Positions 26,469-37,621 of a stretch of DNA of 64,000 nt are shown here, in pieces. The notes beneath the pieces are model-generated. The model was not told where the DNA came from. It searched no databases and saw only the letters and a program-made list of their open reading frames with translations. Each line of letters opens with the position of its first letter. Position 1 is the stretch's first letter. Made by a program: the position numbers and the translations under genes. The stretch comes from Lacrimispora xylanisolvens (GTDB lineage Bacteria > Bacillota > Clostridia > Lachnospirales > Lachnospiraceae), in the NCBI GenBank assembly GCA_017084465.1, contig CP070896.1:2283001-2347000 (forward strand), in the 5' to 3' direction.

Positions 26469-28797
26469 TTACTGCTTTTTGTTCCGCTCTATCACCCTCC
26501 AGATTTTCTCCGGAGTTGCCGGAATGCTTAATTCATCCGGATAACTTCCCAGAGAACTAAGCGCATCAGTTATAGCAAAAAATACGGATTCTCCATAGAT
26601 AAACGGCGGTTCTCCAATGGCCTTTGACCGCTTAATGCCAAGTTCATTCATGCAGCCTTCCATCAGTTCAATATGAAATTCCTCCGGAATATCGCCAATG
26701 GTTGGAATCTTATAGGTTGCAGGTGAACTGCTTAAAAGTCTTCCTTTGTCCTGATACACCAGCTCTTCTGTTGTAACCCAGCCCACTCCCTGGATAAAAG
26801 CACCCTGAATCTGTCCGATATCCACCATGGGGTTGATGCTGCTTGCACAGTCGTGAAGGATATGGGCTGAATCAAGGGTGGTGCGCCCGGTAAGCAAATC
26901 AACGGTTACTTCTGTGACTGCCGCTCCAAATACATAATATAAAAAATGGATGCCCTTCTCCTTTCTCTCTGTCAAAATAGATACCGGGAGTTGCATAATA
27001 CCCGTGATCGCATAAATCAATCCGTTCAACATACGCCTTTTGTACCAGATCCTTAAACGAGATAAGAGGATTTTCATAATCTGTTTTTCCCTCATGTACC
27101 CCATAGACATAGCCGTTTTCAAACACTCCATCTTCTCCGGGATATAGCTTTAATACCAGTTCTTTCAACCTCCCAAGAATTTTAAGTGCGGCATTCTCCA
27201 CCGCATGCCCGTTTAAATCACATCCGGAAGACGCAGCAGTTGCAGAAGTGTTGGCAACCCGTTTGGTATTATTGCTTTCAATTCTGATTGTTCCAATGGG
27301 GACCCCCAGAGTAGTTGCAGCAATCTGAGCAATCTTTGTGTTAACCTCCTGGCCCATCTCAATGGCTCCATGGGTGACGGAAACAGATCCATCTGTATAT
27401 ACCTGAATCAGGGCACTTCCCTGATTTAAATGGGCTGCGGTAAAGGAAATGCCAAACTTCACCGGAGTGATCCCAAGTCCTTTTTTCGCAAACCGGTTTT
27501 TCTGATTGAACGCAGCAATCTCTTTTTTCCGTTCATCCCACCGGCTGTCAGTTCTCAGTTTTTCTAAGATTCTTCCGATGTCTTCCCCATGATGGATTTC
27601 CTGCCCGTAAGGAGCCAGATCCCCTTTGTGATACATGTTCTTCATTCTCACATCATATGGATCCAGTCCCAGGGTATATGCAATTCTCTCAATTACGCTT
27701 TCAATTGCGAAAATCCCCTGAGGTCCGCCAAATCCCCGGAATGCAGTAGCCGGGTGTAAGTTAGTCTTACAGGGTCTTCCAATAATTTTTATGTTCTCAA
27801 TTTGATAGCTGTTTTCAGCATGGAGCATAGCCCGTTCCAGAACGGAGGTGCTCACATCGGCAACCGCTCCGCAGTTGGAATTAAGCTCTACGGAATATGC
27901 AAGAATCTTTCCTTCTTTATCAAATGCCACCCGGTAATCGCTTTCAAATGCATGGCGCTTTCCGGTTGAGAGCATATCCTCATCTCTGGTCAGGCGTATT
28001 AGAGCAGGGCGCCCGGTATGACAGGCTGTAAGAGCAGCAAGGCAGGCCCAGGAGGTTGCCTGGGATTCCTTCCCTCCGAATCCTCCGCCCAGTCTTTTAA
28101 TGTCTACTGTAACCATGTTCTGAGGCAGCCCCAGAACTCCCGATGCCATCTTCTGAATCTCGTTGGGATTCTGAGAAGAGGAATACAGGGTAATTCCGCC
28201 GTTGTCTTCCGGGACAGCAAGGGCACTCTGGGTTTCCAGATAAAAATGTTCCTGTCCCTCATTTCTGATTACCCCCTCCATATAACAGGGGCAGTCGGCA
28301 AATACAGACTCCACATCACCACGTTCAATTTTCCGCACAGGTCCCACATACTGTTCTCTTTTTATGGCTTCCCTTACAGTCAGCACAGGTGTCTCTTCTT
28401 CTACCTCAAACAGGATCTGTTCCATGGCTGCTTCCGCTTCCTTTATGCTTTCTGCAGCTATGATTGCAACTGGTTCACCCACAAAATGAACATGCCCCTG
28501 AGCCAGGCATACCTCATCTTTAATGATTCCACCGATCTGATTTTCACCTGGAATATCCTCTGCGGTCAGAACAGCAGCCACCCCCGGCATCTCACTGGCC
28601 TTTTGTTTATCCAGTTTTACAATCCGTCCGTTTGCAACCGGGCTAACCATGACTTTTACATATAACAGGTTTCCGGGTTTTGGAATATCGTCAATAAACT
28701 GGGAACGGCCCATTACGTGATCACGTCCGCTTACGTGTAATGGTGAGGTTCCTGCCTGCCCCCACTGATTATTTTGTCTCATCTGTTCATTCTTCAT
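26469..28797 (-). CDS. Xanthine dehydrogenase-type molybdenum-binding subunit (frameshifted)
   Basis: Catalytic subunit, about 775 residues, of a molybdenum hydroxylase. Cofactor-binding motifs are clear: RLGGGFGGKESQ, AFRGFGGPQG (with the substrate-contacting Arg of xanthine dehydrogenases), GQEVNTKIAQIAA, and IGEPPFIYGESVFFAI (catalytic Glu). This combination points to hypoxanthine/xanthine as substrate. Frame change near 26945 in the C-terminal domain. The start ATG at 28797 overlaps the upstream FAD/Fe-S subunit gene by 11 bases. The whole operon is behind a purine-riboswitch-like leader. Confidence 0.9.
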
Positions 28798-30246
28798 GAC
28801 CATCTGCCTCCTGACTGCTTTCATAAGCCAGATAATGTTTCATTAAAAGATTTTCCATTACAGCTTCCCGGTAATCTGCACTCCCTCTCACATCGCCAAT
28901 GGGTGATGCCTCTCCCCGGATTATGTCATAAGCCTCCAAAAAAGTTTCCTCTGTCATGCGTTTTCCCTCCAGGTAATGAGAGGTTTTTGGCATATAAAGT
29001 GTAGTAGGACCCACACCTCCGCAAGCCATGGACGCTTTTTTAATCATACCCTCTGAAATCTGTAAGGCTATGGCAGAATTAACCGCGGATATGTCCACTT
29101 CTTTTCTCTTGCTCACCTTTTCAAAGTGGATAAAATTATACTCTCCCGTTGGAATGGTAATGGAAGCAACCCACTCGTCAGATTTGTTTTCTGTCTGCTT
29201 ATAGCCATGATAAAATTCACGGACAGGAATGCTTCTTGTTCCCTCACAGCCTTTTAAATGTACGACTGCATTTACTGCCATCAAAAGAGGAACGGTATCT
29301 GCTACTGGCGAGGCATTAACAAGATTACCTGCCAAGGTAGCTGACGATCTTACGTGCTCTGAACACATGCCTGAAACTGCTTCGGAAAACTGCGGGAAAA
29401 ATGAATTTACCTCATCAATAATTTCTGACAAAGTAACTCCCCCCTCCAATGGTCAGCTGATTATCCCTGTATGAAATATTTTGCAAAGATGAAATTCTGC
29501 TGATATCCACAAGAAGTCTGTAATGCTGGTTTCTTTTCTTGATTCCCACTACTACATCGCTTCCGCCATTTAAAAATCTTAAATTCTGCCCGGAAACAAG
29601 CTCTTGGTGGTCTCTTATAAATGCCTCCAGGTTATCTTCCGAAACAGGAGAATAATATGCATGAACCCCATCATCAATAAAAATATCTTCATGGACAAAA
29701 GTCAGCTGTTTTTCTTCTGTCTCATCCAGATAAGAGGGGCGGATTTCTTCAGAATGAATAGTTAAATCCTCTAAGTATTCGGGCACCTTCCGAATGGATG
29801 CATATCCCGTGCACCGGCAGAGATTTCCCTCTAAATATCTGCGAAATTCTTCTTTTCCGGGATTCGGCCTCTCCAGATAAAGAGCCAGAATAGACAAAAT
29901 TACCCCGGGTGTACAAAACCCGCACTGAGTCGCATGCGCATTTAAAACAGCTTCCTGTATGGGATGAAGCTTTTCTTTTTGTGCAAGCCCCTCAATGGTA
30001 ATGAGATGCTTCCCCTCCAGTTTTGCTGCCAGATACAAACAGCCCGCAACGGACTTATAATGTACCTTTCCTTCTCTTACCTCCCCGATCACTACCGTGC
30101 ATGCTCCGCAGTCCCCCCTCTCCGCAGCCTTCCTTGATTCCATTTAACTGAAACCGGCTGCGGAGAAGCTCCAATACTGTTGTTTCCCCATTGACTGAAA
30201 TCTCTTTTGATTTTCCATTCAGAAAGAAGCGAATCGTTTTTTTCAT
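28787..30246 (-). CDS. Xanthine dehydrogenase-type 2Fe-2S/FAD subunit (two frameshifts)
   Basis: About 485 residues. The N-terminal 2Fe-2S domain holds GCGEGDCGACTV and the second cluster group CGFCTPG and CRCTGY. The C-terminal half is a CO-dehydrogenase-type FAD domain (LRFLNGGSDVVVGIK, SATLAGNLVNASPVAD) with the usual C-terminal lobe. Both breaks are in runs of six G (complement of 30113-30118 and 29439-29444); deleting one G in each restores the conserved protein. Electrons pass from the molybdenum centre through the clusters to FAD. No molybdopterin synthesis genes are nearby. Confidence 0.9.
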
Positions 30247-30385
30247 ACCTTTCCTTACTCCTTTTCATACCTGTTTTTGCCGCTGGTCTGCATGCATTTC
30301 TTCGGGCAATTGGATAAAAAAAGCCCCAGGCACACGAAACACACACAAAACAACTGCTTCCTGTGAAGCGGCAGTTTAGTCTGTG

Positions 30386-30458
30386 CTCATGTAGCCTAGG
30401 GCAATTTAAGGTCGCCTGGTCGAGACGCTCAAACCATATTAATGAGCTTATACAAGAA
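30386..30458 (-). promoter_or_regulatory. Purine-riboswitch-like aptamer (variant) upstream of the xdh operon
   Basis: On the minus strand the order of the purine aptamer is complete. P1 is UUCUUGUA with UACAUGAG (one mismatch). J1/2 is UAA. P2/L2 contains AUAUGG (30427-30447). J2/3 is GUCUCGA (30420-30426). P3/L3 contains ACCUUAAAUU, whose CC can pair with the GG of L2. J3/1 is CUA. Compared with the guanine aptamer, the position of U51 is G, and the base of P3 has extra bases; the C of J3/1 that reads guanine is kept. It lies 140-212 bases upstream of the Fe-S/FAD gene. A hairpin at about 30353-30377 may be part of the expression platform. Confidence 0.72.
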
Positions 30459-30498
30459 GCAGTCCATATTCAAATACTTCTTTGTATCTTTACATATA

Positions 30499-30526
30499 AT
30501 TATAGCGGATTATACCAGATAGTCAA
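30499..30526 (-). promoter_or_regulatory. Promoter of the xdh operon
   Basis: On the minus strand TTGACT (30521-30526), a 16-base spacer and TATAAT (30499-30504). Transcription would start near 30492, about 35 bases before the aptamer, leaving a leader of about 245 nt before the first gene. Confidence 0.7.
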
Positions 30527-36726: not shown

Positions 36727-37621
36727 CTATTTCAAAGCCTGACGGACATTCCCGCCTGCTTTTAACAGCTTTTCTCTCGCTTCGCTGGCACCACAATCAG
36801 ACAAAATCATGATTACTGCTGTTTTCACATGACCATCTGCCTGTTCCAGTACCTCTTTTGCTTCCTCTCTCTCACACCCGGTTGCAGTCATCACAATATT
36901 TTGTGATCTCACTACCAGCTTTTCATTGCTCTGTCTGACATCCACCATTAAATTCTGATAGACCTTCCCAATTCCGATCATACTTCCGGTTGATATCATG
37001 TTTAAAACCATTTTCTGAGCAGTTCCTGCTTTCAGTCTGGTAGAGCCGGTAAGTACTTCCGGTCCGGTGACCGGTTCAATGGCTAACATTGCTTCCTTTC
37101 CAATGTCAGAATCCCTGTTGCATGAAATGGCTACGGTTTTACAGCCAATGGAACGTGCATACCGGAGTCCATGAATGACATAAGGCGTTCTGCCGGATGC
37201 AGCAAGACCTATTACGATATCTTCTTTTGACAGCCAGATGGATTTTAATTCCTCTTTGCACAAGGGTTTCACTGTCTTCCGCGCCTTCCACTGCCTCCAC
37301 AAATGCCTTCTCACCTCCTGCAATCAGACCCACAACCATCTGTGGCGGCACGCCGAAGGTAGGAGGACATTCCACCGCATCAAGTACTCCCAGGCGGCCT
37401 GATGTTCCCGCTCCCACATAGATAATTCTGCCTCCTGATTTCAGGCTTTCTGTTGCCCACTCAATCGCCTGTGCGATCTGGGGGATTACTTCCTCTATTG
37501 CCTTAATAACAGCACCATCCTCCTGGTTCATAATCCTGGCAATTTGAGTGGGAGTCATCTCGTCTAACCCCATAGTATCCGGGTTCCTTGACTCCGTTGT
37601 CAGTTTTGATAAATCAATCAT
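36727..37621 (-). CDS. murQ: N-acetylmuramic acid 6-phosphate etherase MurQ (frameshifted)
   Basis: About 298 residues. Cleaves the lactyl ether of MurNAc-6P to give GlcNAc-6P and D-lactate. The SIS domain contains [19 protein letters not shown] and CPPTFG (catalytic Glu region); the second half carries [24 protein letters not shown] and [18 protein letters not shown], all characteristic of MurQ. Frame change near 37260; across it the sequence reads [13 protein letters not shown]. The start at 37621 overlaps or abuts the murR stop. Confidence 0.93.

Follow-up and report, generated by a model that had tools for sequence, protein, structure and literature searches.

What does a purine-type aptamer recognise when it carries G in place of U at position 51 and stands before the genes of a xanthine dehydrogenase, and how would recognition be passed on to these genes? 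On the minus strand of the window (the whole 64,000-nt stretch, all positions being numbered from its first letter) a TTGACT-16-TATAAT promoter (30526-30499), a purine-type aptamer (30458-30386) and two xanthine dehydrogenase (xdh) genes follow one another. We propose, with a probability of about 90%, that a xanthine-II aptamer and a terminator overlapping it constitute a xanthine-induced ON switch for xdh.

Structure of the aptamer

The preliminary description had reported a three-way junction of the purine type and had suggested running the Rfam Purine model; this check gave an end-to-end match to RF00167 at 30475-30372 (minus strand), scoring 55.1 bits where the gathering cut-off is 37 (E 1.1e-6 over 64 kb). 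The letters it had given for L2, L3 and J2-3 (GUCUCGACC) are correct, the U51 position (30421) is indeed occupied by G, and the J3-1 cytosine is retained. The elements are as follows.

30386..30458, minus strand: xanthine-II type aptamer, P1 to P1 (Rfam match; alignment with relatives; 104.6 bits with the covariance model R1, the window sequence itself being among the seven used to build R1)
30451..30458, minus strand: P1 5' strand (alignment with relatives)
30441..30447, minus strand: P2 5' strand (alignment with relatives)
30434..30440, minus strand: L2, AAUAUGG (Rfam match, alignment)
30427..30433, minus strand: P2 3' strand (alignment with relatives)
30417..30426, minus strand: J2-3, GUCUCGACCA, 10 nt (8 in guanine-I), with position 51 = G at 30421 and position 48 = C at 30424
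30412..30416, minus strand: P3 5' strand (alignment with relatives)
30405..30411, minus strand: L3, CCUUAAA (Rfam match, alignment)
30400..30404, minus strand: P3 3' strand (alignment with relatives)
30394..30399, minus strand: J3-1, CUAGGC, 6 nt (2 in guanine-I), with C74 at 30394 (alignment with relatives)
30386..30393, minus strand: P1 3' strand (alignment with relatives)
30499..30526, minus strand: sigma-70-type promoter TTGACT-16-TATAAT, 11/12 consensus matches, with the same hexamers and spacing before the relatives' aptamers

J1-2 lies within UAUAA. The base of P3, earlier described as bulged, is better read as a P3 of 5 bp between a 10-nt J2-3 and a 6-nt J3-1. By alignment with relatives P3 comprises five pairs, GGCGA/UUGCC (30416-30412 with 30404-30400), which hold in 99.2% of cells (24 sequences), and the mismatch and two-base insertion in the Rfam alignment appear because that model imposes a P3 of seven pairs. 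P1 is present, but its closure is interrupted by a single U-U mismatch (30455/30389); the fourth P1 pair is mismatched in 7 of the 24 distinct G51 cores, window included. Across these 24 cores, which were selected by the G51 mark, 92.7% of 478 cells pair and both-sided changes occur at 9 of 20 pairs. None of 500 shuffles scored as high for pairing or for both-sided changes, and 2 of 500 did so for further pair types. Pairing falls to 38-58% when the partners are slid by 1-3 columns, a comparison that favours the structure, since it was derived from such sequences. Taken alone, the window aptamer has a minimum free energy no better than that of shuffles (z 0.34; 125 of 200 at least as good), a result that lends no support; the fold may depend on the ligand and on loop-loop contacts. 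The window RNA is real, conserved and functional-looking.

The preliminary description had further pointed to pairing of the P2 5' arm (GCUCAU) with AUGAGC at 30385-30390. This pairing exists in the window, but as a conserved alternative state we rejected it, since only 4 of the 35 distinct cores allow six pairs (counting G-U). The promoter it had named is likewise present, but a single such site is not above chance for 500 bases (shuffle mean 1.3); identical hexamers and spacer precede the aptamer in L009, L011, L015, L149 and L150 (Herbinix, UBA11329 and the Desulfosporosinus group).

Relatives of the aptamer and the genes they precede

A pattern combining J1-2, L2 and the G51 form of J2-3 was scanned once through 84,980 species genomes and found 24 matches, 13 of which continue as a window-type aptamer or are cut within the aptamer. 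These 13 come from Lacrimispora (four records), Herbinix, UBA11329, Desulfosporosinus, a Bacillota MAG, a Deltaproteobacteria MAG, a Hungatella MAG and three MAGs titled Paenibacillaceae; the remaining 11 (L007, L008, L010, L012, L016-L021 and L024) do not continue in this way and were dropped. L028 was excluded, as its sequence ends inside the aptamer. The three MAGs titled Paenibacillaceae bacterium SIG286-288 (L025, L026 and L027) carry the Lacrimispora leader, and the title of the L025 genome appears to be wrong, since its coordinates are those of a genome listed in the window's genus.

The covariance model R1 was built from seven rows in all, namely pattern-scan relatives and the window. 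In Lacrimispora, the genus of the window, it matched 9 of 25 genomes with scores of at least 103 bits, all other matches listed there reaching no more than 48.5. At E 1e-14 a sample of the window's class yielded 1 of 391 genomes, the own genome only, and a DNA similarity search through 299 genomes of the family matched the window alone. R1 matched 3 of 82 genomes in the class of the Desulfosporosinus genome and, at E 0.001, 297 of 398 genomes of Bacilli, most of which presumably carry guanine-I aptamers, only the highest-scoring matches having been fetched and classified. One Bacilli family, in which R1 matched 20 of 197 genomes at E 1e-14 with both forms counted, has G51 and U51 RNAs side by side, with a J2-3 of 10 and 9 nt, respectively, and with the published kinds of genes; from sequence and genes we infer that these RNAs are the same as the published Paenibacillus members. 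The loci with a long J3-1, L069 apart, fall into two J2-3 groups, GUYUCGACCA (last base G in L013) and GUNUCUACA. J3-1 is one base shorter in L149 and L150.

The genes downstream of the window aptamer are:

28787..30246, minus strand: gene for the FeS-FAD subunit of xanthine dehydrogenase; frame interrupted in this assembly; homologue in L006
26469..28824, minus strand: gene for the molybdopterin subunit of xanthine dehydrogenase; frame interrupted in this assembly; homologue in L006

Both homologues in L006 are uninterrupted. That of the molybdopterin subunit (784 aa) scores 889.5 bits with TIGR02965 (cut-off 849.5), and that of the FeS-FAD subunit (486 aa) has xanthine_xdhA as its best model, at 394.2, below the cut-off of 467. 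The best-matching solved chain for xdh is 1jro, a xanthine dehydrogenase that we take to be of Rhodobacter origin. The Rfam match and these genes bear out the earlier view that a purine-scaffold variant stands before a purine-oxidising molybdoenzyme. Frames of the window are interrupted at 26469-30246 and at 36727-37621 (minus strand), affecting both xdh genes and a SIS-domain gene, presumably MurQ-like, in two overlapping frames. Assembly indels are the likely cause, given that the xdh genes of relatives are uninterrupted and that the own genome, a single contig, has 89.5% completeness.

XdhB (protein search, E up to 1e-100) occurs in 9 of the 25 genus genomes, the same nine that hold the aptamer at 103 bits or more. 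The comparison of homologous leaders advised in the preliminary description accordingly places the aptamer at xdh in 9 of 9 genus genomes with XdhB, with G51 in each locus fetched. Two of the outcomes named there as refuting, the lack of a covariance-model hit and the lack of conservation of G at the U51 position, were not observed. First genes were called by tblastn at 42 deduplicated loci, one member of each kind being named by hmmscan and single-member kinds serving as their own reference; L134 (77.1 bits, U51 type) was left out of these counts as well as of those for the terminator helix and the P2/P1 pairing. The first gene after the G51 RNAs (n=30) encodes the FeS-FAD subunit of xdh in 7 cases, an E. 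coli-type XdhA in 3, allantoinase in 6, a Rieske oxygenase in 11, and an NCS2 permease, a BMP lipoprotein and a phosphoribosyltransferase in one each. With all groups pooled, G51 thus precedes xdh, allB, Rieske, NCS2 permease or BMP genes at 29 of 30 loci, and the U51 sister RNAs precede a phosphoribosyltransferase gene at 11 of 11. The exception, L125, is a G51 RNA followed by a phosphoribosyltransferase and then by a Rieske oxygenase. The aptamer is shared by two xdh families, that of TIGR02965 (L006 and L009) and that of NF043082 (L015); in the Desulfosporosinus group (L015, L149 and L150) it precedes an E. coli-type XdhA (NF043082, 1230 bits for L015). The frames that follow in Herbinix (L009) are AIRS-like, YqeC-like and MobA-like.

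Assignment to the xanthine-II class

The sections of PMC9295807 (Hamal Dhakal et al. 2022) drawn on here describe 34 xanthine-II RNAs, guanine-riboswitch variants marked by U51 to G, a two-base insertion in J2-3 and an insertion in J3-1, and linked to genes for dioxygenases, allantoinase and xanthine dehydrogenase. In some of these RNAs the aptamer is overlapped by a potential terminator, and the architecture is considered consistent with an ON switch. One xanthine-II RNA, from Paenibacillus, binds xanthine with a KD of about 36.5 uM and rejected, at 100 uM, the other purines offered. The same sections characterise guanine-II RNAs by U51, a J2-3 longer by one base and a link to phosphoribosyltransferase genes, and mention an 8-oxoguanine variant; a crystal structure, 9IWF, is mentioned in an extract from PMC12776560.

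The window RNA has the three-stem junction (P1/P2/P3) with the L2 and L3 loops, G at position 51 (30421), a J2-3 with the two-base insertion (10 nt against 8, the U51 sisters having 9), an insertion in J3-1 (6 nt against 2), a place before xdh genes (or, in relatives, allantoinase or Rieske oxygenase genes), and a terminator overlapping the aptamer. As every sequence mark stated in that text of PMC9295807 is present, we file it under xanthine-II. Neither U51 with a short J3-1, as in guanine-I, nor U51 with a one-base J2-3 insertion, as in guanine-II, is found in the window aptamer. The specificity, left open or held to be new in the preliminary description, is neither, for U51G with insertions in J2-3 and J3-1 before purine-degradation genes is what PMC9295807 sets out as xanthine-II, and the window RNA looks like a further member of this rare class. 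The earlier expectation of an oxidised purine rather than guanine as ligand is probably right, and going by the class xanthine would be that ligand. What is new are the members from Lacrimispora and the Desulfosporosinus group and the possible guanine/xanthine relay considered below.

In comparison with the xanthine-II RNAs of PMC9295807 (in its cited sections), the window RNA is alike in the marks above, including the ON architecture, and keeps C74. The Lacrimispora members have a guanine-type L2 (AAUAUGG) and a P1 with a U-U mismatch, and position 48 is C or U. The hosts here are Lacrimispora, Herbinix and the Desulfosporosinus group, whereas those sections name Paenibacillus, Propionispira and Clostridium, its three groups pooled. 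Guanine-II RNAs share the long J3-1 and the overlapping terminator but keep U51, have a J2-3 one base shorter (GUNUCUACA) and precede phosphoribosyltransferase and IMPDH-like genes. Guanine-I (RF00167) shares the three-way junction, both loops, the J1-2 UAUAA and C74, and differs in U51, in an 8-nt J2-3 and in a 2-nt J3-1. The xanthine-I riboswitch (NMT1 motif) resembles the window RNA in its ligand, as proposed here, and in its kind of genes, but has an entirely different structure according to PMC9295807. A lax-threshold Rfam scan of the leader revealed no further riboswitch; the one other match, to an sRNA, was below threshold, scoring 18.5 bits where 70 are required. Our literature search found no paper on a purine riboswitch in Lacrimispora or on a Lachnospiraceae riboswitch with xanthine dehydrogenase, which does not amount to absence from print. 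The assignment would extend this rare class of riboswitch to anaerobic Lachnospiraceae and to the Desulfosporosinus group, with two xdh families under one aptamer.

The same fold and ON mechanism could serve another oxidised purine (urate or 8-oxoguanine), or a xanthine/urate pool, in the Clostridial members, which differ from the Bacilli members in L2 and one P1 pair; the published binding test concerned a Paenibacillus RNA (PMC9295807). We consider this improbable: J2-3 and J3-1 are identical in Clostridial and Bacilli G51 members except for position 48 and the start of J3-1, the genes are those of xanthine dehydrogenase and, in L013, of an NCS2 permease whose best model is the xanthine permease pbuX (score below the cut-off), and the class member tested rejected the other purines offered.

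An overlapping terminator and the proposed switch

Downstream of the aptamer the leader contains a terminator that uses J3-1 and that was absent from the preliminary description.

30323..30402, minus strand: terminator hairpin, 80 nt, with 5' arm GCCCUAGGC (30402-30394) and 3' arm GCCUGGGGC ending at 30323
30316..30322, minus strand: terminator U-tract, 7 U (sequence)

The hairpin has a folding energy of -47.8 kcal/mol against -23.8 for shuffles (z -6.83) and ends, with its seven U's, about 70 nt upstream of the start codon. Its 5' arm GCCCUAGGC is made of part of the P3 3' strand and J3-1, and the hairpin continues through the P1 3' strand; because these strands are shared, aptamer and terminator are mutually exclusive. 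In 38 of 47 distinct leaders (30 of 34 with G51, 7 of 12 with U51, and L069) the J3-1 strand pairs without interruption, over 7 bp or more, with bases lying just before a U-rich stretch; these cases are not independent, many of the leaders being close relatives. The window helix is 8 bp long and 0 of 100 shuffles gave one as long, although for single leaders this control is weak, e.g. L013 (10 of 100). Of the nine leaders without a continuous 7-bp helix, seven show a bulged one when folded, and L126 and L138 show neither version. Pairing is kept in L006, whose 5' arm has C for the U of the window, and in L009, whose 3' arm has A for its G.

Since the terminator overlaps the aptamer, sensing of xanthine would most likely turn xdh on. 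According to the mechanism that we propose, the aptamer would fold first as RNA polymerase leaves the promoter. With xanthine bound, P1 and the J3-1 strand would be locked in the aptamer, GCCUGGGGC would be left with no partner, no terminator would form, and the FeS-FAD and molybdopterin subunits would be made. When xanthine is lacking, GCCCUAGGC would pair with GCCUGGGGC into the 80-nt hairpin before the seven U's, and transcription would stop ahead of xdh. The fold, the identity of the core, the class marks, the overlapping terminator and the gene context can be read from the sequence; xanthine as the ligand is deduced from the class, and the ON direction and the co-transcriptional choice are likewise deductions.

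An OFF switch, or control of translation instead of termination, would be in line with guanine-I switches, which commonly reduce expression when guanine is plentiful (as stated in the cited sections of PMC9295807), yet we give it a still smaller chance than a different ligand: the strong seven-U hairpin has its 5' arm in common with P3, J3-1 and P1, so that folding of the aptamer would itself oppose termination, and those sections describe the architecture of the class as consistent with ON. We infer that the length of J3-1 serves switching more than ligand specificity, because a long J3-1 is common to U51 and G51 forms and the published guanine-II and xanthine-II RNAs bind different ligands. 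The natural pairs (G51 with a 10-nt J2-3, U51 with a 9-nt J2-3), which have one scaffold and one kind of expression platform, would suit tests of how few changes are needed to convert sensing of guanine into sensing of xanthine.

Other purine aptamers and a possible relay

The own genome has two more Purine matches, L003 and L001, and this retention of two U51 guanine-type aptamers elsewhere, together with the association of G51 with a J2-3 two bases longer, a long J3-1 and catabolic genes, seen in two classes and with two xdh families, makes it very hard to regard the window RNA as an ordinary guanine riboswitch with tolerated substitutions, even though the Rfam Purine model covers it and no overlapping family scores better.

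L003 (own genome 1491351-1491447, minus strand) is a guanine-type aptamer with U51 (GUUUCUACC) before a guanine deaminase gene (guaD), whose two pieces score 263.5 and 77.8 bits with TIGR02967, in both cases short of the 375.4 set for the whole protein. The P3/L3 strand of L003, AACUACCGU, and the segment ACGGUAGUU, which lies directly before a U-rich stretch, are complementary; the piece of L003 that was folded is devoid of P3 and so cannot display this pairing. A match of 9-10 bp between P3/L3 and the terminator arm is found at 12 of 13 distinct guaD loci of the genus, with L052 as the exception (14 of 22 rows had guaD, L003 and L051 are one locus, and the short locus L042 is outside the 22 rows). 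What supports the pairing is its conservation, including changes to G-U that retain pairs; shuffling is a weak control at any one locus, as 2 to 13 of 100 shuffles (letters shuffled singly) give a match as long. L003 is possibly an ON switch for guanine deaminase, and the conserved P3/L3 complementarity at guaD loci suggests that guanine turns on guaD as xanthine would turn on xdh.

We tentatively extend this to a relay, which we hold to be somewhat less than an even bet, in which guanine would act through a U51 aptamer on guanine deaminase, whose product xanthine would act through the xanthine-II G51 aptamer on xdh, and in which the J3-1 insertion of xanthine-II and guanine-II would be kept mainly as a terminator arm, so that the change of specificity would amount to little more than U51G and one J2-3 base. 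If this holds for the guaD/xdh pair, one genome would use related RNAs for a simple form of substrate induction at two successive steps.

The third purine aptamer of the genome, L001 (2629565-2629660, plus strand; GUUUCUACC), has a P1 that ends about 30 nt before the start of an FAD-dependent oxidoreductase-like frame (named by eye), and in L001 no long terminator helix with P3 was found. L069 (G325:C60:3006-3092, minus strand) is another variant of the purine scaffold, with the 11-nt J2-3 GUGCAGUACCA, the long J3-1 CCCCAGGCUA and an overlapping terminator helix of 10 bp; its exact core pattern, sought in a phylum sample of 398 genomes, occurs only in the one that L069 comes from. It precedes genes for a formimidoyltransferase (FtcD), a cyclase and an amidohydrolase, with glycine-dehydrogenase and lipoate-ligase genes nearby (neighbourhood L156), a setting suggestive of anaerobic purine fermentation.
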